A stretch of 64,000 nucleotides of DNA from Bacteroidales bacterium (GTDB lineage: Bacteria > Bacteroidota > Bacteroidia > Bacteroidales > VadinHA17): NCBI GenBank assembly GCA_003141895.1, contig PLNT01000010.1:14112-78111 (forward strand). Direction: 5' to 3'. Made by a program: the position numbers and the translations under genes. Shown here piece after piece: positions 3,782 through 19,790 of the stretch (within the stretch, counting starts at the first letter, position 1; each line of letters opens with the position of its first letter). The notes under the pieces are model-generated. The model was not told the origin of the DNA, made no database searches, and was given only the letters and a program-made list of their open reading frames with translations.

Positions 3782-4972
3782 TTAATTAATTTTTAGCGGG
3801 AAATAGATATTTTCTCTATTTTGAACTTTCCCCTCATTAAGCAAATTTTTAGCCAAAAAACCAAGCTTCATCCGTGTTTCGCCAAGCGGTTCTTCCATAT
3901 CTGAAATTTTCACTCCGTCAGGGTGGTTATTGATATAATTCATTACCTTCTCTTCCATTGTCTTCGGGGCACGAGGTTTAGGCTCCGCTTTTGGCTGAAC
4001 TTTAGCCTTCATTTTCTTAGCCGGACTGGTATGGATTTCCTTTTTCGCTTTCTTTTTCTCAGGTTCACGAATTGCCTGCTTAGGCTGCGGAATATCTCCT
4101 GTTTTTCTTATCTGAGTCATTTTGTCCTGCATCTTGTTCCACATTTCCAAAGCCTGTTCTCTGTTTTGTGATAAATCGCCAAGGATATCTGCAGTAAATT
4201 TTTGAATACTCTTTACTTCTTTTTGAATCCCTTTTATTGAGACGTGGATACCTTTCATTATCCTATTATAGTCGTTATGCCTCACTGATTCGCCATTTGC
4301 AAGATCTTTTCTCAGCTTTTTCGCCATATTCAGGTTCTCTTTGCTGATTTCCGATAATCTTTTCTGAAATCCATCCAGCAAAGATCTGGTACACTCAACT
4401 CTGTCGGCAAGATTCTTACCCAGTTCTGCCTTAAGGTCAGCCGACATATTGAGATGCTCATTTTCAAATCTGCCAAGCATGTCGTTTGTATTTTTGAAAA
4501 TTAATGAAACCTCATTGTTGATGCTATTGATATCATCGTTTATAATTTTCATCATGGCATTGAATTCCTTCATCCTGCTTTTCCCGTTCTGCATCATGTC
4601 GGACCTGTCCTTTGCAAATGACTTATTCAACCCATCAGCCATTTGCGCCCTGTCGGTTGTGAAATCATTTATCATATTGAAAGTTGAAGTTTGAATTTCA
4701 ACTACATCTTTCTGTATGGAGCCGATCGTACCATGGATACTGTTCAATAATCCATTGAATATATGAAGCCGGTCTTTTTCGCCATTTGCAAGTCCTTTCC
4801 TAAGGTCTGCAGCATTGGCGTTTAAGACTTCCGCCATCTCCAGGTGGTCTTTCCGGAAACCGTCGAGGGTTTTCTGAACATCGTTAACAAGTTCTTCATT
4901 TTCCCTGATACGTTGTTTGAATGAAGCAAGCAAATCTTCACTCAAGTTTTTCATTTCTGATGCTAGTCCCAT
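3782..4972 (-). CDS. GvpC-like helical repeat protein with winged-helix-like C-terminus
   Basis: This 396-residue protein is almost entirely helical and repetitive up to residue about 290. Units of about 60-65 residues can be aligned at 45-108, 109-172 and 214-272. Each carries a Met/Ala helix, an R..(D/E)(Y/F)N..M..I segment and an I..EV..I..(F/T)...(I/M)L segment; a less regular unit fills 173-213. A Lys/Pro-rich linker (294-337) leads to a compact C-terminal domain (338-396) resembling a winged helix (MEEKVMNYINNHPDGVKISD). The position between gvpA and gvpN suggests that it is the outer, stiffening GvpC. The 33-residue cyanobacterial repeat is not visible, so homology to GvpC is unproven. 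The start is preceded by a good AGGAG eight bases upstream. Confidence 0.6.
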   Translation of the reverse strand: MGLASEMKNLSEDLLASFKQRIRENEELVNDVQKTLDGFRKDHLEMAEVLNANAADLRKGLANGEKDRLHIFNGLLNSIHGTIGSIQKDVVEIQTSTFNMINDFTTDRAQMADGLNKSFAKDRSDMMQNGKSRMKEFNAMMKIINDDINSINNEVSLIFKNTNDMLGRFENEHLNMSADLKAELGKNLADRVECTRSLLDGFQKRLSEISKENLNMAKKLRKDLANGESVRHNDYNRIMKGIHVSIKGIQKEVKSIQKFTADILGDLSQNREQALEMWNKMQDKMTQIRKTGDIPQPKQAIREPEKKKAKKEIHTSPAKKMKAKVQPKAEPKPRAPKTMEEKVMNYINNHPDGVKISDMEEPLGETRMKLGFLAKNLLNEGKVQNRENIYFPLKIN

Positions 4973-5014: not shown

Positions 5015-5653
5015 TTAGTTTACCCTGTTTGGCATTAGTCCTATAGGGTTGAATTCTTTAATTATTTGATCTTTAATCTTTTTTATATCATGAATCAGAA
5101 TGTGATCGCCTTTATTAAGCAGGTTTTCAAGGCAACTCATCATTCTGTTTTGCATTTGCTGAAAATCCATGAATGTCTTTATTACAGTTTCCTTTCGCAT
5201 TTCATGCAGTTTTGAAATCTGAGAGAGTTGCTCTTTTATAATTGTGATTTTTTCGCAGTTGTCGTGTGAGGTAATATCTTTGATGCCCAAAAGGCTGTTT
5301 TTAAGTGCCTGGGCCGTTTGTTTCTGGTCTTCAATAAAGTTCAAAAACTGTTTTTCAGCTTCTCTTTCCTTCTCATCGAGTGCGCCAAGTATGCCCGACA
5401 TCATTGAGTTATAATCTTTTTTACGCAGCGAACCATTTTTTGCAAGGGTTTCGCAAAGTCTGGAATTTAATAAGTCTCTTTCTTTTTTGAGATTATTTAT
5501 TGAATTATGAACATCATAGAACAGCGAATGCGATGATTCCGTAATTTTTTCTGATGATTGGAAGGCTGTTTGAATTTTTTGAATCCTGGATTCGTATGAT
5601 GTTATAATATTGTCAAAAAAACCATCAATATTTAATTCAGTCTGGGTATTCAT
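5015..5653 (-). CDS. Coiled-coil protein related to the GvpC-like repeat protein
   Basis: A 212-residue all-helical protein without signal peptide or membrane segment, lying directly after gvpA. Residues 70-88 (LAKNGSLRKKDYNSMMSGI) match residues 224-242 of the neighbouring 396-residue protein (LANGESVRHNDYNRIMKGI) without a gap, sharing L, A, S, R, DYN, M and GI. It therefore looks like a single-unit relative of that repeat protein, and may be a second vesicle-surface or assembly factor. It lacks the basic linker and the winged-helix-like domain. No named family is recognised. The start has no clear Shine-Dalgarno box. Confidence 0.6.
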   Translation of the reverse strand: MNTQTELNIDGFFDNIITSYESRIQKIQTAFQSSEKITESSHSLFYDVHNSINNLKKERDLLNSRLCETLAKNGSLRKKDYNSMMSGILGALDEKEREAEKQFLNFIEDQKQTAQALKNSLLGIKDITSHDNCEKITIIKEQLSQISKLHEMRKETVIKTFMDFQQMQNRMMSCLENLLNKGDHILIHDIKKIKDQIIKEFNPIGLMPNRVN

Positions 5654-6058: not shown

Positions 6059-6120
6059 AATTAATTAATAATGCCGTGCTTTATATGAGGGACGGGTTAC
6101 CTCTTGTGCAGAAAGACTAA

Positions 6121-6135
6121 CCAAAGGGTGTGCCA
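6121..6135 (-). promoter_or_regulatory. Sigma-54 (-24/-12) promoter of gvpA
   Basis: The minus strand reads TGGCACACCCTTTGG. It fits the sigma-54 consensus TGGCAC-N5-TTGC except for the last base (G for C). The spacing of the -24 GG and the -12 element is correct. Transcription should begin near 6110 and run into gvpA. The same element recurs at 8723 and 19621 with the same upstream palindrome, which makes chance unlikely. Confidence 0.8.
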
Positions 6136-6277
6136 GAAATATCGGGTAAATAAGAAACGAGTGATTTTGATCAACTAATTACCTGAATATGAAGTACAAA
6201 AAAGATAAATCTGATTTTTAAGAAAGAGATTCTGCAGGAATGATTATGAAAAAGGGAAGGAAAACAATTGAAATAAT

Positions 6278-6291
6278 CGCACATATGTGCG
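6278..6291. promoter_or_regulatory. Palindromic upstream activator site, copy 1 (gvpA)
   Basis: CGCACATATGTGCG is a perfect 14-bp palindrome, flanked by TTGAAATAAT on the left and GAAATG on the right. Its centre is about 162 bp upstream of the -12 element of the gvpA promoter, within the usual range for enhancers of NtrC-type activators. The inferred binder is the activator encoded at 8910-10298. Confidence 0.75.
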
Positions 6292-6343
6292 GAAATGGGT
6301 AAATAAATTCCTGTGGAAAACTCTCATTATTGTAATATTAAAA

Positions 6344-6351
6344 TATCTTTG
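6344..6351 (+). promoter_or_regulatory. Possible Bacteroidota -7 element for the 6465-8118 genes
   Basis: TATCTTTG matches the Bacteroidota -7 consensus TAnnTTTG and lies 114 bp before the start chosen for the first plus-strand gene. No clear TTTG -33 box is seen at the right distance, so this is a weak call. Confidence 0.3.
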
Positions 6352-6464
6352 CCGGGTCATAATTAGTTATGATAAACAAATAACATAGTGGGGAATAACC
6401 TGATCTTAATATTTTATACCTCTTTCGTTGCTTAGGAGTGATAACAGAAAGAATACTGACTGGC

Positions 6465-7094
6465 ATGAAAAAATTATTATGTATCCCGATAGTCCATAAT
6501 CAGGCTGATTTAGGATCTCTTGGTTCACAATTATCGCTGGAAGGAGAAAAAAAATATGGGGTTGCTCTTTGGAAGGATCATCTCGAAAAGGTTGAAAAAT
6601 CGTGGGATGAAATTGAAATAGAAATTTCAAGTCAGCTTAAAAAGATATCGTTCAACAAGGTTAAGATCTATCAGGATGGATTACCGGCTGCAGGTGATAT
6701 AGGAATAAAAATTATTAAAGATTCTGCCGGCAAAGGCAGCAAAAATTATAGTATAATAAATAACCTGCTTACCAAAGGTGCAAAGCTTGAAATGGCTGAA
6801 AATAAAGAATTATTGTTCAAAGAATATTATCTTTTATCTGATATAAATAAGGCTGATACACCTGAAAAACAATTGGCAGCATATTTAAAATATCAGGAAT
6901 TATCGCAGGAATTGTTGAATAACAGGGACAATTATATTGCAAGTCAGATTAATTCCACACTTAATAATGGTGAAATCGGAATCGCATTTTTTGGAGCTGC
7001 CCACTCTATAATTGATAAATTGAATGAAGATATTAATGTTACTGTTATCCAGATGTTTAAGGATGAAATATCTTTAAATCTGATTAAAAAATAA
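6465..7094 (+). CDS. Uncharacterised cytoplasmic protein beside gas-vesicle cluster
   Basis: A protein of about 209 residues without signal peptide or membrane segments. Visible landmarks are the N-terminal strand KKLLCIPIVHNQADLGSLGS, a KIYQDGLP motif near residue 64 and a late IAFFGAAHSIID motif. Together they suggest a Rossmann-like alpha/beta protein, and I recall similar unnamed proteins in other microbes, but no function is known to me. The frame also opens at a GTG at 6438. I prefer the ATG at 6465 because conserved-looking sequence starts there. It is transcribed away from gvpA and begins a three-gene run. Confidence 0.75.
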   Translation: MKKLLCIPIVHNQADLGSLGSQLSLEGEKKYGVALWKDHLEKVEKSWDEIEIEISSQLKKISFNKVKIYQDGLPAAGDIGIKIIKDSAGKGSKNYSIINNLLTKGAKLEMAENKELLFKEYYLLSDINKADTPEKQLAAYLKYQELSQELLNNRDNYIASQINSTLNNGEIGIAFFGAAHSIIDKLNEDINVTVIQMFKDEISLNLIKK

Positions 7095-7115
7095 ACTTTG
7101 ACCCTTTTTCAAATA

Positions 7116-7721
7116 ATGAGAACTAGCTGCATTCCACCTATAACGTCAACAGGAAGTAATAGAAGAAGAACACCCGCTCGTCTTGATGGACTGGCACATG
7201 TATCGATTGGCAGGTTTATGTCAGAAATGGAGAGAAACAGGAAGACTGAAGATGATAATGAAACCTGGAGTGTTACTAAATATGCCAGATCTGATTTTAA
7301 TCAAAAATCAAAAAAGGAAGAAACTACGCCTTATATATATGATACAGAACAAAAAATAAACTGTATTACACATACGTTTGATGATTATAATGAAGAAGGT
7401 GATTTTGTTATAACACTTGAGTTTAGCGGATTTGAATTTTCAGGTGACACATTTAACAGGATAGATTTTCATAATAATACCTGTTGCTATTTCATTCCTG
7501 TTCGTTTTCAGGGAAAAGAAGCATGCTTATATTTAACGACAATTGGAGATATTTTTGAATATGAGGTAGTTAGCTATAAAGGAAGTGTTACCCGATTTTT
7601 TAGCGATGAAGATTTTATTCCGGAATTATTACAAACATACGATTCGTCGAGTATGAGGGTTGAATTAGCAGGCAATTACATTATAATCACTTACAAGAAA
7701 AATCAGATTTATGGAAGATAA
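7116..7721 (+). CDS. Uncharacterised protein, second of three linked genes
   Basis: The product has 201 residues from the ATG at 7116; a TTG at 7098 would add six. The N-terminal 70 residues are polar and probably disordered (NRRRTPARL, then DDNETWSVTKYARSDFNQKS). The rest looks beta-rich: GDFVITLEFSGFEFSG, then TTIGDIFEYEV and a final SMRVELAGNYIIITYKK. The order of strands, with a closing nGxxxIxxxK, is loosely reminiscent of an Hsp20/GvpH beta-sandwich, but this is a weak resemblance only. It begins 21 bp after the previous stop and overlaps the next gene by 11 bp, so the three are probably one operon. Confidence 0.7.
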   Translation: MRTSCIPPITSTGSNRRRTPARLDGLAHVSIGRFMSEMERNRKTEDDNETWSVTKYARSDFNQKSKKEETTPYIYDTEQKINCITHTFDDYNEEGDFVITLEFSGFEFSGDTFNRIDFHNNTCCYFIPVRFQGKEACLYLTTIGDIFEYEVVSYKGSVTRFFSDEDFIPELLQTYDSSSMRVELAGNYIIITYKKNQIYGR

Positions 7722-8118
7722 TATTGATATTAGTATTTCAAATTTTATTTTTACTTTAATAAAGTACAGCAGACAATGTAAATGTGATTTGGATTTTGCT
7801 TTCAACATCTTTCTTTTAGAAGAAGAATATGAAAAATGTTCTGTTTTGAAAAAATTAATTGACAATAAATATTACGACAATGATAAACAGAGTAATTATA
7901 AACGTATTTTAAACGTAATAAATAAAATCAATGAATTTGACGGCGATAATGAAGAGATGTTACATTCTGGAAAAGAACTTTTAAAATTGAAAAGAGAATT
8001 GATGTACTTCATTGATAAAATAGAAGAACTTTATTATGTAAATATTCCATCGTTGCAGAATACAGAAATAAGGTTAAATATTGTAGCGATGGAATTTCTG
8101 AAGATAGTCGCCGATTGA
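7711..8118 (+). CDS. Uncharacterised small helical protein, third of three linked genes
   Basis: A 135-residue, mostly alpha-helical, acidic protein with no signal peptide and no recognised domain. Cysteines are found near residues 23, 25 and 43. The ATG overlaps the end of the preceding gene by 11 bp, indicating translational coupling. Its 3' end overlaps the convergent lysozyme-like gene by 45 bp, which is unusually compact for this genome. Base composition is more AT-rich than the signalling genes. Function cannot be inferred beyond membership of this three-gene group next to the gas-vesicle operon. Confidence 0.65.
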   Translation: MEDNIDISISNFIFTLIKYSRQCKCDLDFAFNIFLLEEEYEKCSVLKKLIDNKYYDNDKQSNYKRILNVINKINEFDGDNEEMLHSGKELLKLKRELMYFIDKIEELYYVNIPSLQNTEIRLNIVAMEFLKIVAD

Positions 8119-8634
8119 TGTTCCATTACTATCCAGCGGATTCTTATTGTTTTCCAGAAATTTTTTAACACCACCAATACCTCCCAGATGAGCAGCAGCG
8201 AGGAGTCCTGATCGGGTTATCAGAACACCTCCTATTGTTTGTCCTATGTATTGCTCAAACTGTTTTAAGGCAAGTTCATTGGCTCTTATTAAGGCTCTCA
8301 AAGCTTCTTCCTGTAGTTCCGGAGAGAATATTTCAGGATTAGTTTTAAATTTATTAAATGTAATACCTTTAAAACCAAGGCATTCAAGAGTAGCGACCCT
8401 GAACTGGTAAGTTCCTATGCAGCCGATTTTATTATATTTTGTCCAGTCACCGCCTGATTCTTTAAATCCTAAATCTTCTTTCCACCGGTTAAACTCTTTT
8501 TCCCATGCCCATCTCTTCATTTCAGAGATAACGTATTTTTTTTGACTTTCTTTCAATATGTCAGACAGGTTTGGCGCAGAGCAAAGATGGAAGATAAAAA
8601 TAAGGATTGTCAAAATTACAATTTTCTTAATCAT
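8074..8634 (-). CDS. Exported lysozyme-like (transglycosylase-fold) protein
   Basis: The 186-residue protein starts with a hydrophobic signal sequence (residues 1-19). It then carries features of a lysozyme-fold glycosidase: a candidate catalytic Glu59 in GFKESGGDW, a GCIGTYQF motif (72-79), and a late SGLLAAAHLGGIGGVKKFL helix. Such proteins cut peptidoglycan glycan strands or related polymers in the periplasm. It stands alone on the minus strand behind its own sigma-54 promoter and enhancer, which match those of gvpA. That suggests it is made together with gas vesicles, perhaps for envelope remodelling. Activity is inferred from motifs only; a binding protein without catalysis is possible. 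Confidence 0.7.
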   Translation of the reverse strand: MIKKIVILTILIFIFHLCSAPNLSDILKESQKKYVISEMKRWAWEKEFNRWKEDLGFKESGGDWTKYNKIGCIGTYQFRVATLECLGFKGITFNKFKTNPEIFSPELQEEALRALIRANELALKQFEQYIGQTIGGVLITRSGLLAAAHLGGIGGVKKFLENNKNPLDSNGTSIGDYLQKFHRYNI

Positions 8635-8722
8635 TTTCTTAGTTCTTAGTTAATAACGGAACTACAAACACCATGATGAAAGTTGTGATGGTGAAAATTT
8701 ACCTTTTATGCAAAGAGATAAT

Positions 8723-8737
8723 TCAAAGGGTGTGCCA
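8723..8737 (-). promoter_or_regulatory. Sigma-54 promoter of the lysozyme-like gene
   Basis: The minus strand reads TGGCACACCCTTTGA, identical to the gvpA element except in the last base. A start near 8712 gives a leader of about 77 nt. The region between it and the palindrome is also clearly similar to the gvpA promoter region, for example AAACGAGTGATT in both. Confidence 0.75.
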
Positions 8738-8881
8738 CAAATATATTGTAGATAAAAAACGAGTGATTCTTATCAGATAATTATCTGATTATATATCACT
8801 TAAAGAGAGATATGTGTTTTTTTAGGAAATGGATACTTCAGAAATGATAATAGAAAAGTAAGGCAATCCAATTGAAATAAT

Positions 8882-8895
8882 CGCACACATGTGCG
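8882..8895. promoter_or_regulatory. Palindromic upstream activator site, copy 2
   Basis: CGCACACATGTGCG has perfect 6-bp arms and a CA centre. It lies about 164 bp upstream of the -12 element of the lysozyme-like gene and just past the stop codon of the activator gene. Flanks match copy 1 (CAATTGAAATAAT on the left, GAAATGG on the right). Confidence 0.7.
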
Positions 8896-8909
8896 GAAAT
8901 GGCCTATTG

Positions 8910-10298
8910 TTACTCGCCTTTGTTAACAATAATATTGAACTTTTTCAATTTCCGGCTGAGGGCATCGCGGGTTATGCCCAGAAGTACAGCCGCTGAAGTC
9001 TGATTGTATTTGCAGTCTTCCAGCGCTTTCCTGATCATTTTAATCTCATGATCTTTAAGATTTACTGAATCGTGATGTTCAATTGAAGCTGATATTTTTT
9101 GAGGTTTTACAGGGAAGTCATTTATTCCAAGCAGGTTGCCCTTGCAAAGGATGATGGCCCTTTCTGTCATATTTCTCAACTCTCTTACATTTCCCGGGAA
9201 ATCATACTTCGGGAGTGCATCAAAAACCTCCTCTGATACACGGAGTTTAGGTCTGTTAAATTTTGTTGCATAAACATTAACAAAATGGTTCAGCAGAGGT
9301 TTTATATCTTCAGGTCTTTCCCTCAGTGCCGGAATATGTATATGCAGGGTATTGAGCCGGTGTAGCAGGTCGAGCCTGAATTTTTTCTTTTCCACCCTTT
9401 TATCAATATCATGGTTTGTGGCAGAAATGATCCGGAAGTCGGTGTGAATCAGATTTGTATCTCCCACCCTGGTAATCACTTTTTCTTCTGTTGCTCGCAG
9501 AATCTTTGCTTGCAGATTATATGGCATGTCGGCAATTTCATCAAAAAACAATGTCCCCTGGTTACACAATTCAAAGAAACCCATCTTATCGGTAATGGCG
9601 CCTGTAAAAGATCCCTTCTTGTGGCCAAAAAATTCGCTTTCCAGAAGCGTATCGGTAATGGCGCTGCTGTTAACGGCACAAAAAATATTATCTTTCCTTA
9701 TACTTGAATAATGTATTATTCTGGCAATGTTCTCTTTCCCGGTTCCACTTTCGCCGGTAATCAGCACATTTGACTCGGGATACTTAGCGGCGGTGATAGC
9801 TTGTTCGAATACTTCCAGAATCTGGGGGCTGACACCAATAAATTGCCGGTCGATTTTTTCTTCAAGGTTTTTAGAGATCAATGAGTTCTTTTCTTCCATT
9901 TGTTTCAACCTTCGTTGCAGAAGAAGGTATTTTTGGGTACGTTCAATGGCTATCTGAATGTCGATATACCTGAATGGCTTGCGCAAATAGTCGAATGCCC
10001 CGAACCGCATGGCTTTAATCACAGTATCCATATCGCCATGAGCAGAAATTATGATGACTTCCATGCCGGGGTATTTTATTTTCACCTCCTTCAGTATATC
10101 AAGGCCATTAACACCTGGCAACCGCACGTCAAGTATCAGAAGGTCAATTTCATTATTGATTAATATTTTATATCCTTCTGCTGCAGTGTTTGCCTCAAAG
10201 GACATATATTCTGTACCCTCGAAAAACCCGCTCAATTCATCTGTGAATTGCTTCTCATCATCGAGGATCAGAATTTTTATTTTATCTTGTATTGCCAT
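8910..10298 (-). CDS. NtrC-type sigma-54 response regulator
   Basis: The 462-residue protein has three domains. A receiver domain (1-125) has acidic DD at 13-14, phospho-acceptor Asp57 in LILDVRLPG and Lys107. An AAA+ sigma-54 activation domain (about 150-390) has GESGTGKE at 182-189, GSFTGA at 229-234 (a common variant of GAFTGA), LFFDEIADMP and the R-finger region. A Fis-type helix-turn-helix (about 415-456) ends the protein. It is therefore a complete enhancer-binding activator. The start is placed at 10298, one base after the stop of the upstream kinase, rather than at a longer 10346 opening that would overlap it. It is the last gene of the signalling operon and the likely binder of the three CGCACA(T/C)ATGTGCG sites. 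Confidence 0.93.
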   Translation of the reverse strand: MAIQDKIKILILDDEKQFTDELSGFFEGTEYMSFEANTAAEGYKILINNEIDLLILDVRLPGVNGLDILKEVKIKYPGMEVIIISAHGDMDTVIKAMRFGAFDYLRKPFRYIDIQIAIERTQKYLLLQRRLKQMEEKNSLISKNLEEKIDRQFIGVSPQILEVFEQAITAAKYPESNVLITGESGTGKENIARIIHYSSIRKDNIFCAVNSSAITDTLLESEFFGHKKGSFTGAITDKMGFFELCNQGTLFFDEIADMPYNLQAKILRATEEKVITRVGDTNLIHTDFRIISATNHDIDKRVEKKKFRLDLLHRLNTLHIHIPALRERPEDIKPLLNHFVNVYATKFNRPKLRVSEEVFDALPKYDFPGNVRELRNMTERAIILCKGNLLGINDFPVKPQKISASIEHHDSVNLKDHEIKMIRKALEDCKYNQTSAAVLLGITRDALSRKLKKFNIIVNKGE

Positions 10299-10299
10299 T

Positions 10300-12657
10300 T
10301 TACTTTTTCTTTTGAATATCCAAAACAATTTTAATTTTTGTTCCACTAAGACTTTTGCTCTTTATGTCAATGGTTCCGTCCATCTCCTTAATTATCTGAT
10401 AACAAATCGATAATCCTAATCCGGTTCCCTTTCCTTCATCCTTTGTTGTATAAAAAGGAAGCATTACATTATTGATATCATCATCACTTATACCAATACC
10501 ATTATCGGTAATTTCAACGATTATTAATTGATTCTCCAGATATGATCTGATTCCTATGATCATTTCAGTATATTCTGACAGTTTGCTTTTCTTTTCGATC
10601 ACAGCATCTTTGGCATTGATTAACATATTAATGATAACCTGCTCAAATTTATAGGTATTTCCAAATATCTGAGGAATTTGATCTCCGAGTTGAAGATTCA
10701 GTTCTATTCCCAGGTGTTTGAACTGTTCTATTACCATTGAAGCAGCATTTTCGATGCTGGAATTAATATTGAAGGAAGTCAGTATATAATCATCTTGGCT
10801 TCTGGAGAATGCCCTGATATGATCAATGATGTTCCTGATACGTGTTATGTTTTCAAAAATTTTGTCAGATTTGTCTTTTAGTAATCCGATGTCGATAGTT
10901 TTGGTTTTGGCTGACTCAAATAAAATTTTATCCATTACTAAAGAAATGATATTTAAGGGCTGGTTTATTTCATGTGCAATGCCTGAAGCCATTTCGCCCA
11001 GGTTTATCATACGGTCGGCATGCATCTGTTTAGTCTCTTCTTTCTTACGCTGGGTAATATCGCGGGTAATGACCATGTATGATAAAGGGGTACCATCCTG
11101 TCGTTGTATTAAAGTAACACTGATTTCACCTGCAACTAAAGTTTTGTTTTTCTTTTTAATTTTTAACTCAAAATTTTGTACAAGTCCTTCATTTAATGTC
11201 TTTTCAAGTATTTCTTTGATATTTATTTTTTCATCAGGCGCCACGAATTGCAAAACATTTTTACCTACCAGGTCATCTATGTTATCGGCGCCAAATAATT
11301 CAAGCCCTATATCAGATACCTCGGTAATGATTCCTTTCATGTTGATTAATAAAATACCATCTGGAGAAGAATTTAACATTGTTCTGTATTTTTCTTCGCT
11401 TATTATTACAGCCTGCTCTGCCATCTTGCGCTCAGTTATATCAACAACATTTATATGGCATTCTTTTCTATTTACCAGAACCATACCTTCAATATGCACA
11501 TATTTAGGCTGATTGCCTTCTGTTTCGAGCATTACTTCACATATTTCTTTGCCTTTGCCTGTAAAAACATTCTTTAAAAAAGCATTAAAGGCAGGTAGCG
11601 AATTCCTGGAAACAAAAAAGCCGAAATGGTTGTCTGTTAAACGTGAACGTTCTTTGCCAAGCATGAGTGCACCGCTATGGTTTATCTCTTGAATTATACC
11701 TTCTGCGGAAAGCGTAAAATAACCCGATGGTGCAAAATCGTATAATTCAGTATATTTTTGGGAAGCAATCCGTGCCTTATCTATTGCCAGCATGAGTTCA
11801 TCGTTCTGCATTTCGAGTTCAAACTGATGGGTTCTTAAAGATTCCTCCATCTCGCTGCGCTGCGTGATGTCTTTTGCAAAACCAAGAAATCGCGTTTTAG
11901 AAAGCTTTACAGCTTCTACTGACCACCATCGAATAGTTCCGTTTTTATGTCTGAACGGCATGTCTGCTTTTGATGTGCCTGTTTTAACCACCTTTCCGAA
12001 AGGAGTCATATCATCGTCTTTAAGTGATTTTTCCTGGTAAAGGTCCGATACTGACATTTTTAACAGCTCATCCTTAGAATATCCTGTTATCATGCATGCT
12101 GCATTATTTACTTCGATGTATCTTCCGGTTTCATCCGCTATAAAAATACCATCCGGAGCAGAATCAATATAATTACGGTATTTTTCCTCACTCTTTTTCA
12201 GGTTTGCCAGGACTTTGTTCAATTCATCGGTAGAATTTTTAAGCAACTCAGCATCATTTTTAATTTTCTGTTTCTGATTGAAAAGGTCGAGAAATACGTT
12301 AATTTTGCTTAGCAGAATCTGATCATCAACTGGTTTAAAAATGTAATCAACAGCGCCGGAATCATATCCTTTGAACACATGCCTTTCATTGATATGATCA
12401 GCTGTAATAAAAATTATTGGCACCTTCTCCCCCGATTTTTCTTCGTTAATCTTCAATGCCAGTTCATAGCCGTCCATTCCTGGCATCCTGACATCGATGA
12501 TCGCAAGCGCCAATTCAATCCCCCTGATTTTTTTCAGCGCTTCAGAACCTGAAAGCGCCTCGATCAGGTTTACTTTGACTTTCCTGAGGAAGGACTCAAG
12601 TAATACCAGATTTCCCTTTGTGTCATCAACAATCAGCAGGTTTGGTAAAGTTTTCAT
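10300..12657 (-). CDS. Receiver-PAS-PAS-PAS histidine kinase
   Basis: A 785-residue cytoplasmic sensor kinase. An N-terminal receiver (1-125, IIDVRMPGMDG) is followed by three PAS domains (about 165-275, 300-410 and 425-540) and a HisKA domain with GIAHEINQPLN. A HATPase_c domain (about 640-785) has NAKDA, DNGIGI and GTGLGLS motifs. No transmembrane segment is seen, so input is internal or comes from the N-terminal receiver. The second PAS is nearly the same as the first PAS of the 850-residue kinase in this operon. Immediate linkage to the NtrC-type regulator marks it as the probable partner kinase. Confidence 0.92.
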   Translation of the reverse strand: MKTLPNLLIVDDTKGNLVLLESFLRKVKVNLIEALSGSEALKKIRGIELALAIIDVRMPGMDGYELALKINEEKSGEKVPIIFITADHINERHVFKGYDSGAVDYIFKPVDDQILLSKINVFLDLFNQKQKIKNDAELLKNSTDELNKVLANLKKSEEKYRNYIDSAPDGIFIADETGRYIEVNNAACMITGYSKDELLKMSVSDLYQEKSLKDDDMTPFGKVVKTGTSKADMPFRHKNGTIRWWSVEAVKLSKTRFLGFAKDITQRSEMEESLRTHQFELEMQNDELMLAIDKARIASQKYTELYDFAPSGYFTLSAEGIIQEINHSGALMLGKERSRLTDNHFGFFVSRNSLPAFNAFLKNVFTGKGKEICEVMLETEGNQPKYVHIEGMVLVNRKECHINVVDITERKMAEQAVIISEEKYRTMLNSSPDGILLINMKGIITEVSDIGLELFGADNIDDLVGKNVLQFVAPDEKINIKEILEKTLNEGLVQNFELKIKKKNKTLVAGEISVTLIQRQDGTPLSYMVITRDITQRKKEETKQMHADRMINLGEMASGIAHEINQPLNIISLVMDKILFESAKTKTIDIGLLKDKSDKIFENITRIRNIIDHIRAFSRSQDDYILTSFNINSSIENAASMVIEQFKHLGIELNLQLGDQIPQIFGNTYKFEQVIINMLINAKDAVIEKKSKLSEYTEMIIGIRSYLENQLIIVEITDNGIGISDDDINNVMLPFYTTKDEGKGTGLGLSICYQIIKEMDGTIDIKSKSLSGTKIKIVLDIQKKK

Positions 12658-12681
12658 TATATGTTTAAGGGTTTATGGAGT

Positions 12682-13500
12682 TCAAATTATTGACATTTCA
12701 TCATATGGCAGTGCGAAAGTAAATGTTGACCCTGCCCCCTTCTCTGACTCTACTACTATTTCGGCGCCAAGTAATCGTAATAGCCCACTGGCAATAGACA
12801 ATCCAAGACCACTTCCATTTTTCCCTCTTAAAATTGATTCTTCTTCCTGATGGAAATTTTCAAAGATCCGGCTTTTAGCCTCCTTATTGATGCCTGTCCC
12901 TGTATCTTTTACAAAAAATTCCAATAATCCTGATTTTAATTTATAACCAAACGTAATCTTCCCCTTTTGAGTAAATTTAACAGCATTATTCAGCAGGTGG
13001 GATAACACTTTAATTAATAGTCCGTCATCGGAACAGAGTGTTATGTTTTCGGCTTTCCCGGGAGTCTTCAGATACAGATCAAGATGCAGCTCAGCGCATA
13101 TTGGTTGAAATTGCTCCATAAGCATGGTCAGTATCAAATACGGGTTAAATGTTTTTCGTTTCATCTCCATGTTTCCGGAAGCGATCAGGGAGATATCTAT
13201 ATATTTTGTAATGATACTCAGCAATTGGTCGCTGCACGTTTTAATGCAAGAATAAAACTTCTTTTTCTCTTCCAGTGTGATATTGTGTTGCATTAATAAG
13301 CCACTGAAACCAAGGATTCCGTTTAGTGGGGTACGAACTTCATGAGAGATATTGTAAATAAATGCTGACTTGAGACGCTTAAAGTCATTGTCTTTTGCCA
13401 GTATCATTTCTTCGTTCTTCAATTCCATCTCAATAAGATGTGTCTCAAGCTCTTGAATGAGTTTCAACAGGTCGGCTTTCGTTTTGTTACCTTTTCCCAT
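12682..13500 (-). CDS. Histidine kinase lacking a sensor domain
   Basis: The 272-residue protein is a bare transmitter. A short N-terminal coiled coil (KADLLKLIQELETHLIEMEL) leads to a HisKA domain with the H-box YNISHEVRTPLNG and a HATPase_c domain with NNAVKF, DTGTGI and SGLGLSIASG. Nothing resembling a sensor is present. Similar short kinases often pair with receiver-bearing proteins or act in phosphorelays. It is separated by 24 bp from the downstream receiver-PAS kinase. That kinase's N-terminal receiver could be its target, but this is inference. Confidence 0.9.
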   Translation of the reverse strand: MGKGNKTKADLLKLIQELETHLIEMELKNEEMILAKDNDFKRLKSAFIYNISHEVRTPLNGILGFSGLLMQHNITLEEKKKFYSCIKTCSDQLLSIITKYIDISLIASGNMEMKRKTFNPYLILTMLMEQFQPICAELHLDLYLKTPGKAENITLCSDDGLLIKVLSHLLNNAVKFTQKGKITFGYKLKSGLLEFFVKDTGTGINKEAKSRIFENFHQEEESILRGKNGSGLGLSIASGLLRLLGAEIVVESEKGAGSTFTFALPYDEMSII

Positions 13501-13511
13501 CTTTTTATAAA

Positions 13512-13567
13512 GTCGTGATGTCGTTATGTCGTAATATTTACTACCTGCTATTGCCTATTGCCTATTT
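13512..13567. repeat. Short tandem arrays: GTCGTNAT x3 and CTATTGC x2-3
   Basis: Two small arrays fill the 54-bp gap between two kinase genes: three 8-mers (13512-13535) and two to three 7-mers (13548-13567). The second array supplies the final codons and stop of the 850-residue kinase. The same GGCAATA unit, inverted, occurs twice at 19098-19111. Confidence 0.8.
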
Positions 13568-16107
13568 GGTAAAGTAAATTTAAAATCGCTGCCCTTACCT
13601 TCTTCGCTCTTAACCCACAATTTTCCTCCCTGTTTTTCGATAAAATCCTTACTGATCATTAATCCCAGTCCCGTGCTGGGTTCGCCATTGGTACCTTCTC
13701 TGTTTGTCTGAACATCGAGCCGGAATAAATTATCAACCATTTCGTCATTCATTCCAATACCTGTGTCTATGACTGATATTTCAACGGTTTTGTCACGAAT
13801 GACTTTAGCCGAGAGATCTACTTTTCCACCATTGGCTGTAAATTTCACAGCATTTGAAACCAGGTTACGGAATACTGTTTGTAGCATTTTAATGTCAGCA
13901 AAAACCGTTATGCTACCAGGTATATCGGAAGCTATTTCAATTCCCTTGTCTTTTGCTGTGTCCAATACCGTTGATAAACATTCATTTACGATTAGAAGCA
14001 ATTGAACAACCTCTGGATTGAACGGAGTTAATCCTTGTTGCATTCTTGCCCAATTAAGAAGGTTCTCGAGCAAACGGTAAAGGTTGGTGGAAACGCTTCT
14101 CATTGTTGAGGAAATATCGTGAATTTCTTTAATTGATAATGTATCCATCTCCTCAGCCATAAGTTTTGTAAAACCAAGAAATAAATTGAAAGGGTTGCGC
14201 AGGTCATGCGCGATGATAGAGAAGAACTTGTCTTTTTCGATATTTATCTTTTGAAGTTCAACATTTTTTTGTTTTATTTTATCCTCCGACTGCTTTCGTC
14301 GCAAGGACACGCTTGCCAGAAAAACGAAGTTTTCTAATATTTGACGGGACGGATCGGGCTGATCTTTGGCCATAGCGAGCAGGGAAGTACCATGCAGTTT
14401 TCCCTCGATGAGATAGACCACAGCGATAAACCGGTCAACCTTGAGCAAGGCCATTATGGCTGCTGACACCGGCCGTGAGATTGCCCCAAAGCTCGCCTCA
14501 TATAAGTTCATCCGCATCACTATGAGGTCTGTTGTCATCTCTTTGTACATCTCATCACTTACAACTGAGTGAATGTCTCCGAGTTGTTTGCCAAGCAGGC
14601 CGATAACTTTTTTGAGCAGTCCCTGCTCTATTTCAATATGGGTGACAGTTGTTGACCGGGTTTCAGGGTTGAATTCGGAGAATACAGCCGCCCTGGCGCC
14701 GGCAAATTCTTTGATCCTTTTGGTAATGAATGCTTCCAGTCTGTCATCCTCTGACAGCATTGCCAATTCTATGGCAAAATGGTTAAGCTTTGACAATGCA
14801 TTATTTTGCTGTTCCAGCGTCTTTTCTATATCCCTTCTTTTGGTGATGTCCTGGTACATGACTTGAAATTGCCGGACACAATCCCATAAAACCATCTTGC
14901 GAAAAACCTGAAGATGGCGAATTTCTCTATTTTTTCTGACAATACTGATTTCATATTCGGACAATAATTCCTCACCCCGCTGCCTTTTTGCATACCTTTT
15001 TCTGAATTCGGCATAGCTCTCCTTTGTATATCGGTTCCTGACGGGTGTGTTTCTCAACTCCTCAACACTTTCATAGCCATAGATATCAAGGATGGCCCGG
15101 TTGGCAAAGATTGTGTCTCCTTCCGCGGTAACGATCCGCGCCCCGAGCGGGGATTCTTCCAAAGAACTCCGAAAATTCTCTTCAGTCTGATTAATAATAT
15201 CCTGCGCATGTTTGCGGTTGGTGATGTCGCAAATAAATGCTGTATGCAGTTTTCGCTCACCTAACATGAAATAGCTGCCTGTAATTTCAACCGAAAATAT
15301 CGTGCCATCCTTCCGACGATGAAGGCGCAAAGGAACTCGGGTTATCTTGCCGCGAATTGTTGCCTCAGTTTTTTCCGGTTCGGCAGAAATATCTCTTACC
15401 TTCATGAGCAGAAACTCTTCTTTTGAATAACCGTAGAGCATCGATGCGGCAGTGTTAGAGTCAACAAAGTTGCTCGTTGTTTCATCGATAATAAAAATGC
15501 AGTCTGAGGCAGTTTCGAACAGGTTTCGATAGCGTTTCTCGTTTTGGAGCGCCATCATCTCCGCCTTTTGACGTTCGGTGATATCGACCACAGTTACAAG
15601 GCAATGTTCTCCCTTCTCTGTAACAATGCCGGTAAGATGAACATTCATCGGCTGGTTGCCATTTATTAACAGCATTACCTCGCAGGTTTCTTTGACTTTG
15701 CTGATAAATACTTTCCCGATGAAGAGATTGAAGATTGCCCTGGTATCATTAGAAACAAAAAAGTCAAACCTGCTGTTTTTTAAAAGGGATCGTTCCCTGC
15801 CAAGCATTTGCGATCCGCTGAAGTTCAGAAAAAGAATTTTGCCTTCCCTGGAAAGTGTAAAATAACCCAATGGTGCAAAATCATATAATTCAATTGCATC
15901 ATGTGCAGCCGATATTGCCAGCTTCAGTTCATCGTTCTGCAATTCAAGCTCAATCTGATGTACATCAAGCTCATGAATGAGTTTTTGCGTCTCGGCTTCA
16001 GAAAGAAGCTGAACTGATTCTGACTGTTTCTTTTTCAGTAACCCTTCTGCTTTTTGACGCAGAACCGAGGTTTCTGATTTTTTACGTTTTTCCATTTTAG
16101 ATTTCAC
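13555..16107 (-). CDS. Multi-PAS histidine kinase
   Basis: This 850-residue soluble kinase begins with a short coiled coil (HELDVHQIELELQNDELKL). Three PAS domains follow (about 70-185, 190-300 and 310-420), then a region of about 180 residues resembling a GAF-type domain. HisKA (IIAHDLRNPFNLFLGF) and HATPase_c (NAVKF, DTGIGM, GLGLMIS) complete it. The first PAS (ELYDFAPLGYFTLSREGKI) is closely related to one in the downstream 785-residue kinase. The start overlaps the end of the CheB-CheR gene by 11 bp, so translation is probably coupled. No output domain is fused, so phosphate must pass to a separate receiver. Confidence 0.9.
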   Translation of the reverse strand: MKSKMEKRKKSETSVLRQKAEGLLKKKQSESVQLLSEAETQKLIHELDVHQIELELQNDELKLAISAAHDAIELYDFAPLGYFTLSREGKILFLNFSGSQMLGRERSLLKNSRFDFFVSNDTRAIFNLFIGKVFISKVKETCEVMLLINGNQPMNVHLTGIVTEKGEHCLVTVVDITERQKAEMMALQNEKRYRNLFETASDCIFIIDETTSNFVDSNTAASMLYGYSKEEFLLMKVRDISAEPEKTEATIRGKITRVPLRLHRRKDGTIFSVEITGSYFMLGERKLHTAFICDITNRKHAQDIINQTEENFRSSLEESPLGARIVTAEGDTIFANRAILDIYGYESVEELRNTPVRNRYTKESYAEFRKRYAKRQRGEELLSEYEISIVRKNREIRHLQVFRKMVLWDCVRQFQVMYQDITKRRDIEKTLEQQNNALSKLNHFAIELAMLSEDDRLEAFITKRIKEFAGARAAVFSEFNPETRSTTVTHIEIEQGLLKKVIGLLGKQLGDIHSVVSDEMYKEMTTDLIVMRMNLYEASFGAISRPVSAAIMALLKVDRFIAVVYLIEGKLHGTSLLAMAKDQPDPSRQILENFVFLASVSLRRKQSEDKIKQKNVELQKINIEKDKFFSIIAHDLRNPFNLFLGFTKLMAEEMDTLSIKEIHDISSTMRSVSTNLYRLLENLLNWARMQQGLTPFNPEVVQLLLIVNECLSTVLDTAKDKGIEIASDIPGSITVFADIKMLQTVFRNLVSNAVKFTANGGKVDLSAKVIRDKTVEISVIDTGIGMNDEMVDNLFRLDVQTNREGTNGEPSTGLGLMISKDFIEKQGGKLWVKSEEGKGSDFKFTLPNRQ

Positions 16108-19054
16108 GAATCTCGCATTGTATTACCCTCTTCCTGTCCATTAAATAAATAGTGCTGATGAATTCAACATTGATCTTTCGCCCATCAACTGTTTCAAGCG
16201 GCAAATCTTTATAACGGATAAATTCCTTATTCTGTAATTCTGAAAATCTTTCTTTATTATCGACTATATCTTTAAATAATCCAATTTCCCAGATTGCTTT
16301 TTTTAGTAATTCTTCTTTTGTGTAGCCAAGAATCCTAATCAAAGATGGATTCACATCAATGATTATTCCCGTTTCTGCATCGAGGACAAGAATCCCATCT
16401 ATTGCAGATTCAAAAAGTCGACGAAAGTGGGTTTCAACAAGTAGATTACTCTCCATAATTTTCAGATCCTTTTTTAATTCATTAAGTTCTAATTCCATTT
16501 TTTTAAAATTGGTTATATCGATAGCCAATATAACCACCCCGTCTATATGGTCGTCGATTGTGCGGTAGGGCATAATACGTACAGTGAACCACCTGCCGTC
16601 TTTTGATTTGGTCAAAGTTTCGACAGATATCAGCGTTTTGATTACCTGCCATGAATGACTTTCTATTTCGGGATAGTTCAAATCGATAACCAGGTCGGAA
16701 AAAGGTCTGCCTATATCAGTTTCCCGCAATTTAATTACTTTCTTTGCCGAGTTGGTGAACATTCTTATATTCAACTTCTTGTCGAGGAAAAGTGTAGCGA
16801 TATCGGTACTGATGAGCAGGTTTTTCATGTCGTCGTTCGTCCGTGCAGTATTCGATATCTTGCTCTGCATTTCGATATTAACCATTTGCAGTTCCTCGTT
16901 CATGCTTTGCATCTCCTCCTTGGAAGTAGTTAGTTCCTCGTTGGTCGATTGCATTTCTTCGTTTGTTGATTGCAGTTCCTCATTGATTGACTTAAGTTCT
17001 TCCTGCGATGTCTGCATCTCCTCGCGGGTACTTTGCAGTTCTTCATTACTTCGTTGGAGTTCAATCTCCATTTCCTTCTGCCGCGAGGTTGGTCTTCGTT
17101 TCCCTGTTTTCGGGTTCACTGCATCATGCTCAACCACAGCCGGCACATCGGCAAATACTACCACAACCATTCCTCGTACAGATTCGGGGCCTTCGATTCG
17201 TTGAACAGTTACATCCACAAACAGTTTACCCTGGTTGGTTCCCACTTTAATATTGCGCAATATCACCGGATCAAAGTTTTGCATTGCCTTGCGGAAAGCT
17301 GTCGGCAGTTCGTTGCGCAAGCCTTCGCGCGCCATAGCATAAATGTTCCAGTTTGCCTTGCCGGCAATAGGTTCAAGGTATTTCCCGGTATGGCCCGTTA
17401 TGTAAAGTATGTCGCCTCTGTCGTTTACCAGTACACTGGCAGGTGAAAAGCGCTGAAGCAAAATCTGATCGGCAAGGGTCTGAATATTATCAATAGCTTT
17501 CGGCAGTATTTCTTTTTCAATTCGCACTTCTTTAGTGTTGTAAAAGGAGCTGGGAAAATCAATGAGCTCATTTGTCAGTTTTCCGCCAGCGCGTTTGAAA
17601 AATTTTAGTTTGGCATTAATCTCTGTAAACCCATCGTCGTTGGTACCAAGTGTTTCGGCAGTGCCAAGTAACATAATTCCACCGGGATTAAGACTATAAT
17701 GAAAGAGATCCATTAGTTTTTTCTGCAATACAGGCTCCATATATATCAACATGTTGCGGCATGATAGAAAGTCGATTTTAGTAAAGGGAGGATCTTTGAT
17801 AACATTCTGAGGAGCAAATACTATCGTTTCGCGTATAGAGCCATTCACACGATAGGTTTCATCATTAACAGTAAAAAACCGGTTGATACGCTCAGGTGAA
17901 ACATCGGTAGTAATGTTTTTAGAGAAATTACCTTTACGGGCCACCTCAATAGCATCACGATCGAGATCGGTGGCGAATATCTGCAATGAAAGGTTTTTAT
18001 GATTTCTGTTTTCCCCCATTGCCTCTTTAAAAACGATGGCTAATGAATAGGCTTCTTCCCCTGTTGAGCAACCCGGTACCCAGGCGCGCAGCACATATCC
18101 GTCGGGTAATTCTTCAATCATGTCAGGAAAAATACTATCTCTAAGCAGTTCCCATACGTCATTATCGCGGAAAAAGCTGGTAACGCCAATCAGCAACTCT
18201 TTGAAGAGTATCTCAACCTCTTTGGGATTTTCCTGCAAAAAGCGGACATAGTTGTCTATCTTTTCTATCTGGTGAATACTCTTGCGCCTTTCGATACGGC
18301 GAAACAAGGTGTTTTTCTTATACAACGAAAAGTCGTGACCTGATTGGTCGCGTAACAGGATTATAATTTTTTCGAGGTTACTTTTGATTTTACTCTCTAT
18401 AATGGGATCGGCTTTAACATTCGGAATAAACTTAAGGTAAGTAATGAGTTTGACCGGCAATTCCCTGGCGGGCGCTACAATATCTGCAATCACGGCTTCG
18501 ATGGCGCTGTTTGGCATGCCATCGAATTTCGCCGTGGCAGGTTCCTGCACCAGCACCATCCCGTTTTCCTCTTTAATGGCTTTCAGTCCCCTGCTGCCAT
18601 CGCTGCCCATGCCTGAAAGGATAATACCTATACTTTTTTCATGCATATCGTTGGCCAAAGACCGGAAGAAGATATCAATAGGCAGACGCAGGCCGCGCGT
18701 TTCAACCGGATCGAACAGATGGAGTGAGCCATTCAGCAACGACATGCTCTTATTGGGTGGTATAACATACACGAAGTTTGGCTTCACTTTAAGCCCATCA
18801 CTTGCCTGAGCCACCCGCATTTGGGTGATCCGTTGCAACAACTCGGGCATAATACCAATGTGGTTAGAGTCGAGGTGCTGAATAACCACGAACGCCATAC
18901 CGGTGTCTTTTGGCATATTTTCAAAAAACTGCTCCAATGCTTCCAGACCGCCTGCCGAGGCACCAATGCCTATGATAGGAAACTGACTTGTATCTTTTTT
19001 TAGCGTTATATTTTTTTTTACCGGTTTTATTGATTTTGTCTTCCCGTTCTTCAT
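16097..19054 (-). CDS. CheB-CheR-coiled coil-PAS signalling protein
   Basis: A protein of about 985 residues fuses a CheB methylesterase (GIGASAGG, VIQHLDSNH and SGMGSDGSRG give the Ser-His-Asp triad) with a CheR methyltransferase (TSFFRD, WVPGCSTGEEAYS, FATDLD, CRNMLIYM). A heptad-rich segment (ELQRSNEELQSTREEMQ and following repeats) and PAS domains follow. No receiver precedes CheB and no kinase follows. Such CheB/CheR-PAS proteins usually sit in PAS-kinase operons rather than in classic chemotaxis, and their substrates are unknown. I chose the ATG at 19054. A longer opening at 19123 adds a hydrophobic stretch unlike the family and overlaps a small repeat. Confidence 0.88.
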   Translation of the reverse strand: MKNGKTKSIKPVKKNITLKKDTSQFPIIGIGASAGGLEALEQFFENMPKDTGMAFVVIQHLDSNHIGIMPELLQRITQMRVAQASDGLKVKPNFVYVIPPNKSMSLLNGSLHLFDPVETRGLRLPIDIFFRSLANDMHEKSIGIILSGMGSDGSRGLKAIKEENGMVLVQEPATAKFDGMPNSAIEAVIADIVAPARELPVKLITYLKFIPNVKADPIIESKIKSNLEKIIILLRDQSGHDFSLYKKNTLFRRIERRKSIHQIEKIDNYVRFLQENPKEVEILFKELLIGVTSFFRDNDVWELLRDSIFPDMIEELPDGYVLRAWVPGCSTGEEAYSLAIVFKEAMGENRNHKNLSLQIFATDLDRDAIEVARKGNFSKNITTDVSPERINRFFTVNDETYRVNGSIRETIVFAPQNVIKDPPFTKIDFLSCRNMLIYMEPVLQKKLMDLFHYSLNPGGIMLLGTAETLGTNDDGFTEINAKLKFFKRAGGKLTNELIDFPSSFYNTKEVRIEKEILPKAIDNIQTLADQILLQRFSPASVLVNDRGDILYITGHTGKYLEPIAGKANWNIYAMAREGLRNELPTAFRKAMQNFDPVILRNIKVGTNQGKLFVDVTVQRIEGPESVRGMVVVVFADVPAVVEHDAVNPKTGKRRPTSRQKEMEIELQRSNEELQSTREEMQTSQEELKSINEELQSTNEEMQSTNEELTTSKEEMQSMNEELQMVNIEMQSKISNTARTNDDMKNLLISTDIATLFLDKKLNIRMFTNSAKKVIKLRETDIGRPFSDLVIDLNYPEIESHSWQVIKTLISVETLTKSKDGRWFTVRIMPYRTIDDHIDGVVILAIDITNFKKMELELNELKKDLKIMESNLLVETHFRRLFESAIDGILVLDAETGIIIDVNPSLIRILGYTKEELLKKAIWEIGLFKDIVDNKERFSELQNKEFIRYKDLPLETVDGRKINVEFISTIYLMDRKRVIQCEIREI

Positions 19055-19197
19055 AAAAGAGAATTTTGGTGATATTAAGCAAGATACAAAAAATACAGGC
19101 AATAGGCAATAGATGTTCCTCATTCTATTTCCCTTCGTGTTGGTTAGAGTTTGGGCTCTGCCATGCGAGGGATCTCAATATAAACCGGCGGCTTCAT

Positions 19198-19587
19198 TCA
19201 GGCTGCATAGCCAGATTGCAATTTCTCAAGGCCTACTGCTTCTTCAAATGCTCTTACAAACCTCATAAAAAAGATAAAATAATCCTCCTGCGCAAAATAA
19301 TTATGAGTCTCGTCAGGTGTGGAAGGGATATCTTCAAAGTTATTATCTTCTGATGATTTTCCCATTTCTGATGCAGCAAAATCGATGCGTTCGCCGTTAA
19401 TCCGGTTATAAAAATGCCACCCCTTTTTCTTATGAGTCTTCAAAATTTCACCACCAAAAATGTCATGAATCAACAATGAGATTACTATGTCCTGACCAAC
19501 CGGAGGGTTATCGTGGGGCAATCCAGGGCTTTTATCCAAAGCCCAGCTACTTTTCAGTGCCTCTTGCACAACCATTCTGTTAAACAT
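19198..19587 (-). CDS. YunG-family protein, copy 1
   Basis: The 129-residue soluble protein matches the little-known YunG type: GQDIVISLLIHDIFGGEIL, then GWHFYNRINGERIDF and FEDIPSTPDET. The biochemical role of the family is unknown to me. It has its own sigma-54 promoter and palindromic enhancer, like gvpA. It is followed by the CheB-CheR gene 143 bp downstream on the same strand, so the signalling operon may be read from this promoter. A paralogue at 24396-24773 shares about half its residues but has no such promoter. Confidence 0.75.
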   Translation of the reverse strand: MFNRMVVQEALKSSWALDKSPGLPHDNPPVGQDIVISLLIHDIFGGEILKTHKKKGWHFYNRINGERIDFAASEMGKSSEDNNFEDIPSTPDETHNYFAQEDYFIFFMRFVRAFEEAVGLEKLQSGYAA

Positions 19588-19620
19588 ATTCTATTGAATT
19601 TGAGGTTCGGAAATTATTAA

Positions 19621-19635
19621 CCAAAGTATGTGCCA
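19621..19635 (-). promoter_or_regulatory. Sigma-54 promoter of the YunG-like gene and probably the signalling operon
   Basis: The minus strand reads TGGCACATACTTTGG, with the -24 and -12 elements spaced as in the two other copies. A start near 19610 leaves a leader of about 23 nt. If transcription continues through 8910, the activator controls its own synthesis. Confidence 0.75.
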
Positions 19636-19776
19636 AAAAGTACAAGAAGATAAAAAAAAATCTTGATGATTTGGGAAAAGCCTCAATGACAACTATTTAA
19701 GAAATTAATTTGTTAAAAAATAAAGGGATTTTACAGGAACGATTATAGGAAGGGAATTGAAAATAATTGAAAAAAT

Positions 19777-19790
19777 CGCACATATGTGCG
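19777..19790. promoter_or_regulatory. Palindromic upstream activator site, copy 3
   Basis: CGCACATATGTGCG is identical to copy 1. It is centred about 162 bp upstream of the -12 element at 19621, with the same flanks (AATTGAAAAAAT on the left, GAAATGCG on the right). It lies in the 257-bp gap between the PQQ-propeller gene and the YunG-like gene. Confidence 0.75.

Follow-up and report, generated by a model that had tools for sequence, protein, structure and literature searches.

Which protein governs the gas vesicle genes of this Bacteroidales genome, and which other genes would answer to the same signal? The question is raised by three intergenic regions of the window (the whole stretch of 64,000 nucleotides that was analysed), in which a palindrome precedes a -24/-12 element in front of gvpA, of a lysozyme-like gene and of the YunG-like gene that heads a run of signalling genes, respectively (Table 1). 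The initial annotation had interpreted them as a regulon of three sigma-54 promoters, and the coordinates and orientation that it gave to the three palindromes and the three -24/-12 elements are all correct. The explanation that we consider highly probable, and that is argued from sequence comparison, is a sigma-54 regulon in which a 462-residue response regulator would bind CGCACANNTGTGCG and activate the gvpA, lysozyme-like and YunG-kinase promoters.

Table 1. Genes and regulatory elements of the window, further sites of the source genome and an operator of a relative.
Feature	Position	Strand	Remark
Hsp20-like gene of gvp cluster	60..584	-	
gvpA-family gene (gvpJ-like)	640..954	-	weak GvpJ match below cut-off
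gvpA-family/GvpK fusion	981..1514	-	
gvpF/L	1527..2330	-	Pfam GvpL_GvpF
gvpN	2768..3685	-	NCBIfam GvpN above cut-off
396-aa gvp-cluster ORF	3782..4972	-	kept in relatives
212-aa gvp-cluster ORF	5015..5653	-	behind gvpA in relatives too
gvpA, 68 aa	5836..6042	-	NCBIfam GvpA above cut-off
gvpA 5' leader element GAGG...CCGT...CCCTC...ACGG	6073..6103	-	conserved, possible hairpin
gvpA -24/-12 element TGGCACACCCTTTGG	6121..6135	-	
Spacer element TCAGGTAATTAGTTGA	6171..6186	-	by eye, position checked; similar stretches in many relatives
gvpA upstream palindrome CGCACATATGTGCG	6278..6291		one of the eight genomic promoters
Lysozyme-like gene, 186 aa	8074..8634	-	weak Transglycosylas match, below cut-off
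Lysozyme-like gene -24/-12 element TGGCACACCCTTTGA	8723..8737	-	
Lysozyme-like gene upstream palindrome	8882..8895		14 bp past regulator stop codon; one of the eight
NtrC-type response regulator, 462 aa	8910..10298	-	receiver, sigma-54 AAA+, Fis-type HTH
REC-PAS histidine kinase	10300..12657	-	
Histidine kinase, 272 aa	12682..13500	-	
PAS histidine kinase, 850 aa	13555..16107	-	
CheB-CheR-PAS protein, 1008 aa	16097..19123	-	
YunG-like gene	19198..19587	-	head of signalling operon
YunG/kinase operon -24/-12 element TGGCACATACTTTGG	19621..19635	-	
YunG/kinase operon upstream palindrome CGCACATATGTGCG	19777..19790		one of the eight
Site near contig start	C40:703		faces receiver-domain ORF
Site near contig start	C40:2123		faces tandem repeats, further on HigB-like gene (HigBA-like pair)
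Site	C43:36459		faces 49-aa truncated gvpA and receiver protein
Sites of one duplicated unit	C12:14671 and C26:346720		
IHR-type operator CGCGTTAGTACGCG			counterpart of the IHR-type regulator of G421

The genes to the left of the first promoter have the composition of a bacterial gas vesicle operon, with gvpA, gvpN, gvpF/L and gvpK together, and the cluster runs leftwards past the window with a CDC48-type ATPase, four more GvpF/L proteins, a zinc-ribbon protein and two PAS kinases. The signalling genes follow one another in the order YunG, CheB-CheR-PAS, PAS kinase, kinase, REC-PAS kinase and regulator, contiguous on one strand with gaps of 74, -10, 54, 24 and -46 bp when the longest starts are taken, and probably form one operon. 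With its receiver, a sigma-54 AAA+ domain containing GSFTGA and a Fis-type HTH, the last of them is an NtrC-type response regulator; it has these domains in common with the AtoC/NtrC/ZraR types but differs in falling below cut-off in the best 25 of 106 NCBIfam matches (AtoC 352/714 bits, NtrC 351/559). Because GSFTGA occurs once in the window, inside this gene, the motif search turned up no further activator of the NtrC type, in agreement with the earlier claim that it is the sole one. The label of the lysozyme-like gene reflects a weak match (E 0.065, and E 0.0015 for the corresponding protein of G009, both below cut-off), and a PDB sequence search with the protein returned only three ribonucleotide reductase matches, with E about 0.09.

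The promoters themselves have the sigma-54 form, with a GG and a GC/TG pair about 10 bp apart in a TGGCAC-N5-TTGC-like arrangement, the -12 box reading TTTGG/TTTGA here, not TTGC. Exactly three matches to the -24/-12 pattern TGGCACNNNNTTTGV are present in the window against 0.16 expected, and none of 100 shuffles contained three or more; TGGCA-N5-TTTG is likewise found three times, at the same three elements. The palindrome CGCACANNTGTGCG also has three matches, all of them exact even with two mismatches permitted (0.66 expected), and by position alone it lies where an NtrC-type site would, about 100-200 bp upstream of the promoter. In the source genome (4,010,930 bases or 4.01 Mb in 46 contigs; labelled G000) the exact palindrome has eight copies and the reversed control pattern none. 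The genome-wide scan for paired signals that the initial annotation had proposed gave a uniform result, as all eight copies are followed on the same strand by a TGGCA-N5-TTTG that starts 154-159 nt after the palindrome start, and no exact copy stands at random without a promoter. When one mismatch is permitted, two extra places appear, and at neither of them does such an element follow at the proper spacing. The operator extends beyond the palindrome: a 28-letter form, TTTCCGCACANNTGTGCGATTWTTTMAA, retrieves the same eight places with up to three mismatches, together with a degenerate one at C40:3604. Window expectations, shuffles and the complete genomic pairing rule out chance as the source of the association; the three pairs of signals first described are confirmed, with a genomic count of eight, not three.

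A palindrome at such places might instead end transcription of the gene before it, acting as a weak intrinsic terminator, an idea to which we give hardly any probability. A terminator scan lists all three window palindromes on the minus strand, with a stem of 5 followed by ATTATTTC or ATTTTTTC, among 15 terminator-like sites against 11.3 expected; a T-rich stretch follows the palindrome behind the regulator stop codon, and many relatives also have the site directly behind the regulator gene. No same-strand gene end, however, lies close upstream at gvpA (6278), C26 or C43, the distance to the -24 box is fixed, and terminators need neither conservation of CGCACA nor the covariation with a DNA-binding helix described below.

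Two other stretches of these promoters were noticed. An element of the form TCAGNTAATTANCTGA lies between operator and -24 box at 6171-6186 and 8772-8789 in the window; at the lysozyme-like gene it is a perfect palindrome, promoters of relatives look alike by eye, and it is a possible second binding site. Further downstream, GAGG..CCGT..CCCTC..ACGG..AGGAG is common to the window and 24 other gvpA leaders, including those of the palindrome-less G028 and G048. The small hairpin that it may form has some compensatory changes, with 90.4% of cells paired, a value equalled in 2 of 500 shuffles, and Rfam returned no family at gathering score for this leader.

How did one genome come to hold eight such promoters? 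Between operator and -24 box, the spacers of gvpA and the lysozyme-like gene are 73% identical, those of the C40 pair 91% and those of C12 and C26 72%, with at most 64% for YunG within the genome; shuffled spacers gave a mean of 0.285 and a largest value of 0.544, the control being a crude one of simple shuffles and unpenalised ends. Since these stretches resemble one another, the regulon grew partly by promoter copying. It had been argued that nearly equal spacing in three places is hard to explain by chance: the spacing itself is confirmed, but it was partly inherited with the copied promoters and is on its own a weaker argument. A spacing of 147-159 nt is retained at the gvpA promoters of other families with far more diverged spacers, which suggests that it has also been kept by selection.

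Copying opens the way to the view that the eight places are mostly a duplicated promoter cassette and that gvpA, perhaps with the signalling operon, is alone really controlled. For every promoter of G000 the genome contains a partner with 64-91% spacer identity, the site at C40:2123 faces tandem repeats ahead of a HigBA-like pair and that at C43:36459 a truncated gvpA of 49 aa, C12 and C26 form a duplicated unit, and several sites of the source genome may indeed be unused copies. We nevertheless judge this account unlikely, as the lysozyme-like and YunG-like targets retain their own sites in other species. In the window the slot behind the regulator is occupied by the lysozyme-like gene, and the same is true in G009, where the protein is 67% identical; in G019 the YunG-like gene (66%) stands behind its own site. 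These sites persist despite diverged spacers (55% for YunG across species, the two lysozyme promoters being outside each other's four best), and copying, while it accounts for the growth of the regulon, does not make the copies inert.

The assignment of the operator to the 462-residue regulator is supported by four lines of evidence, namely co-occurrence, adjacency of regulator, site and gvpA, the conserved targets of G009 and G019, and covariation between the recognition helix and the half-site. As regards the first, a close orthologue is present in six of 62 genomes of the genus, at 75-81% identity outside the window's own, and the next homologues reach 43% or less, except in G018, which has a second, partial copy at 72%. 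The strict paired motif occurs in three of the 62, all among those six: in G009 ten of eleven palindromes are paired (one unpaired), in G019 three of three, and G005 has one with CGGCATATCCTTTGG. The palindrome as such was seen in 7 of 60 genomes (the reversed control in one, G059), six of which have the orthologue. The exception, G008, has a lone palindrome, GACGCACAATTGTGCGTC, without an element at the appropriate spacing. Reversed control patterns gave no hit in the paired-motif scans of the genus and the order, as in the source genome.

Across the order (393 genomes), gvpA-family genes occur in 16 genomes, an orthologue of at least 60% in 17 and both in 12, so that the orthologue is found in 12 of 16 gvpA genomes versus 5 of 377 others (Fisher 4e-16, relatedness ignored). 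The paired motif occurs in 7 of the 393, and in each of these the orthologue reaches 57% or higher (Fisher 9e-10, again ignoring relatedness); it is absent in its exact form from 16 of the 23 genomes with such an orthologue, several of which have variant sites. No site was seen beside the regulator in G149, G294, G296, G439 or at the second G270 copy, by the automatic table or by eye where shown. The regulator search in the order scored four candidates per genome and was repeated with all candidates in 12 genomes, which yielded no orthologue in G384, G048, G101, G129 or G028. A scan of the species collection returned 31 stretches, 25 of them in eight genomes of Bacteroidota or Ignavibacteria, all of which carry an orthologue at 64% identity or above (partial in one case). 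Five of these genomes had already been counted (G009, G019, G047, G301 and G359, with identical coordinates), so three are new. The remaining six stretches lie in genomes without a close orthologue: those of Nostoc (two), Desmonostoc, Thermomonas and Planctomycetaceae were put down to chance, no orthologue having been found, and the three cyanobacterial ones also because they fall within similar GGGGCGCACA..TGTGCGCCCC repeats; the single Cloacimonetes stretch, with homologues of 41-48% at most, was not counted.

The same association is seen at the level of single promoters. In 16 genomes the orthologue is present and the gvpA promoter could be read, and in all 16 a family site stands at the predicted position (nine exact, two with one mismatch, five variant forms recognised afterwards), a count that excludes G129 and G371, in neither of which a gvpA promoter was read. 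Among the four gvpA promoters without an orthologue, a site is present in G384 (CGCACGGCTGTGCG) and none in G048, G028 and G101. The gvpA gene of G101 has a -24/-12-type element, TGGTATGTTTATTGC, with no palindrome, and that of G048 is preceded at about 100 nt by a match to TAnnTTTG, the housekeeping -7 motif of Bacteroidota. Moreover, eight genomes (G270, G290, G208, G411, G359, G085, G018 and G047) have the order REC-PAS kinase, regulator, site, gvpA and further gvp genes, which G301 shows as well up to the contig end.

The fourth line of evidence comes from the recognition helix, usually LGI[TS]RD[AST]L, and its half-site, usually CGCAC[AG]. To our knowledge, the DNA-reading code of Fis-type HTH domains in NtrC-type activators is poorly worked out. 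An automatic table of helices and sites comprised 34 regulators, 27 of the T/S-D type, four IHR and three RN; visual inspection supplied the sites of G411, G175 and G376 and the two H-type sites of G359. Among the T/S-D regulators, 16 have a CGCAC-type site and ten none, and the inverted repeat found in the remaining one (G296) is unrelated to that type and was taken for chance. The half-sites of the 16 read CGCAC[AG] in 31 of 32 cases and CGCTCA in one. RN replaces RD in two lineages that are separate on the supported tree, and there the half-site type is CGAAC: G018 (RN) has CGAACACAAGTTCG where its sister G085 (RD) has CGCACACATGTGCG, and in G435 (RN) one half is changed, CGCACAACTGTTCG. 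For G371 (RN), the sister of G435, no site is known, and a repeat that the table had assigned to it was dropped. IHRD regulators go with CGCGT-type sites in G421 and G208 (from the table) and twice in G359 (by eye); three of the four form one supported clade, the placement of G208 is not resolved on the tree, and the H-type sites are irregular. Few lineages are involved, and the two RN events with one or two IHR events are suggestive of a joint change of helix and half-site, not conclusive. There are two exceptions: G175 has an H-type gvpA site, yet an S-D regulator alone was found, with CGCACATTTGTGCG beside it, and G384 has a gvpA site and no orthologue in the all-candidate search. For G175 an IHR-type regulator missing from the assembly is predicted. 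The natural RD/RN and ITR/IHR pairs offer a ready test of how NtrC-type Fis-type HTH domains read DNA.

These data also bear on the proposal that the promoters are of the sigma-54 kind but that the palindrome is bound by a different protein, either a repressor or some second activator, the neighbouring regulator acting elsewhere. Further NtrC-type activators do exist in the source genome, in which the regulator has nine matches at E 1e-60 or better, and in G384 a gvpA site is present although no orthologue was detected. We regard the proposal as distinctly improbable all the same: the motif tracks this orthologue group and not NtrC-type regulators at large, which are present in 62 of 62 genomes of the genus, and the half-site shifts with the helix of this very regulator, even between the sisters G085 and G018.

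If the 462-residue regulator is the reader of the operator, its PAS-type kinases would sense a cue through their PAS domains, oxygen or redox being a natural guess, and kinases of the regulator's own operon would phosphorylate it. The regulator would then bind CGCACANNTGTGCG, which lies upstream of the -12 box at a distance of about 162 bp. Looping of the DNA over some 160 bp would let it activate sigma-54 RNA polymerase at the promoters of gvpA, of the lysozyme-like gene and of its own YunG-CheBR-kinase-regulator operon. As the signalling operon would be its own target, the switch would be self-reinforcing (positive feedback). Dependence on sigma-54 is predicted, as is the working of each site. 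Operator, candidate activator, kinases and co-regulated genes can now be named and are testable.

What else the regulon may contain is suggested by relatives, in which the first plausible ORF behind each site was taken as putative target; 22 proteins were scanned and five had no match. Behind further sites of G009 are genes for an SprB-repeat protein, an FN3/Fib_succ_major protein, a bactofilin and an ankyrin protein, G359 has PKD-repeat proteins and G005 a CHU_C type IX cargo, and Peptidase C25 proteins stand behind sites in three gvpA-less genomes (G198, G040 and G437). Because in some relatives the genes behind the site encode secreted proteins or surface proteins sorted by the type IX system, the regulon may connect buoyancy with the cell surface, and gas vesicles may have been recruited into a surface-protein regulon. 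A wider history can be proposed tentatively, and we think of it as possible although rather doubtful: the regulator would be an order-wide master of the choice between floating and surface life. It would have begun with an adjoining type IX-secreted protease or adhesin and later captured the gvp operon in that slot. New targets would then have come under its control as entire cassettes, each made up of operator, -24/-12 element and leader, were copied in front of them; among these targets would be two transcripts of about 150 nt that are driven by sigma-54 and end in strong terminators. Operator and helix would meanwhile have changed together in several lineages. The surface-protein targets provide a concrete hypothesis for a coupling of buoyancy and attachment. 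In G230 (L218, 9252-10158), the site directly behind the regulator faces a sigma-70 region 2 gene, an arrangement that would amount to a sigma cascade.

The kind of control proposed here is known. In Serratia sp. ATCC 39006, gvpA1 is preceded by a sigma-54 promoter and its expression requires GvrA, a protein of the NtrC family (PMC4982088). As there, a gvpA operon with a sigma-54 promoter would be under an NtrC-family regulator whose gene belongs to the gas vesicle cluster, a likeness of arrangement, and the present system would be a conserved Bacteroidota variant of this kind of control. In Serratia, gvrA lies in a second gvp operon, with a sigma-70-type promoter, and gvrB, gvrC and quorum sensing (SmaR) are further inputs. 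Here, by contrast, the regulator has a receiver domain and is encoded last in a kinase operon that would be one of its own targets, and it is predicted to read a defined palindrome and to serve several other promoters. A second comparison is with CtrA, which is not known to be a sigma-54 activator. In Cereibacter sphaeroides it likewise has gas vesicle genes inside a wider two-component regulon (PMC11999139). A search of the open-licence literature, PMC8382752 and PMC11999139 included, turned up nothing on how gas vesicle genes are regulated in Bacteroidota; within the reach of that search, the regulator, its operator and the regulon are new.

Some minor observations concern the neighbourhood of these promoters. 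Three divergent genes adjoin gvpA on the plus strand of the window (6438-8118); the first two also adjoin gvpA in G421 and G301, and the third in G301. The duplicated unit of C12 (L009, about 8092-8689) and C26 (L010, about 8143-8738), on the minus strand, consists of operator, -24/-12 element, a gvpA-like leader, a strong 13-bp hairpin with a T run about 150 nt past the -12 box, and a 60-aa ORF without Pfam match. It could encode two small RNAs under sigma-54 control, or else a leader subject to attenuation. A reading of the ORF as CsbD was abandoned, no such Pfam match being found with E up to 10, and Rfam returned no family at gathering score for either stretch; a weak RsmY-like match at C26 (L002, 2587-2693; 25 bits vs gathering 57, E 0.0067) is probably due to chance. 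At C43 (L012, about 9705-10354), the first residues of the receiver protein behind the 49-aa gvpA match the 212-aa gvp ORF, and the pair appears to be what is left of a second gvp operon.
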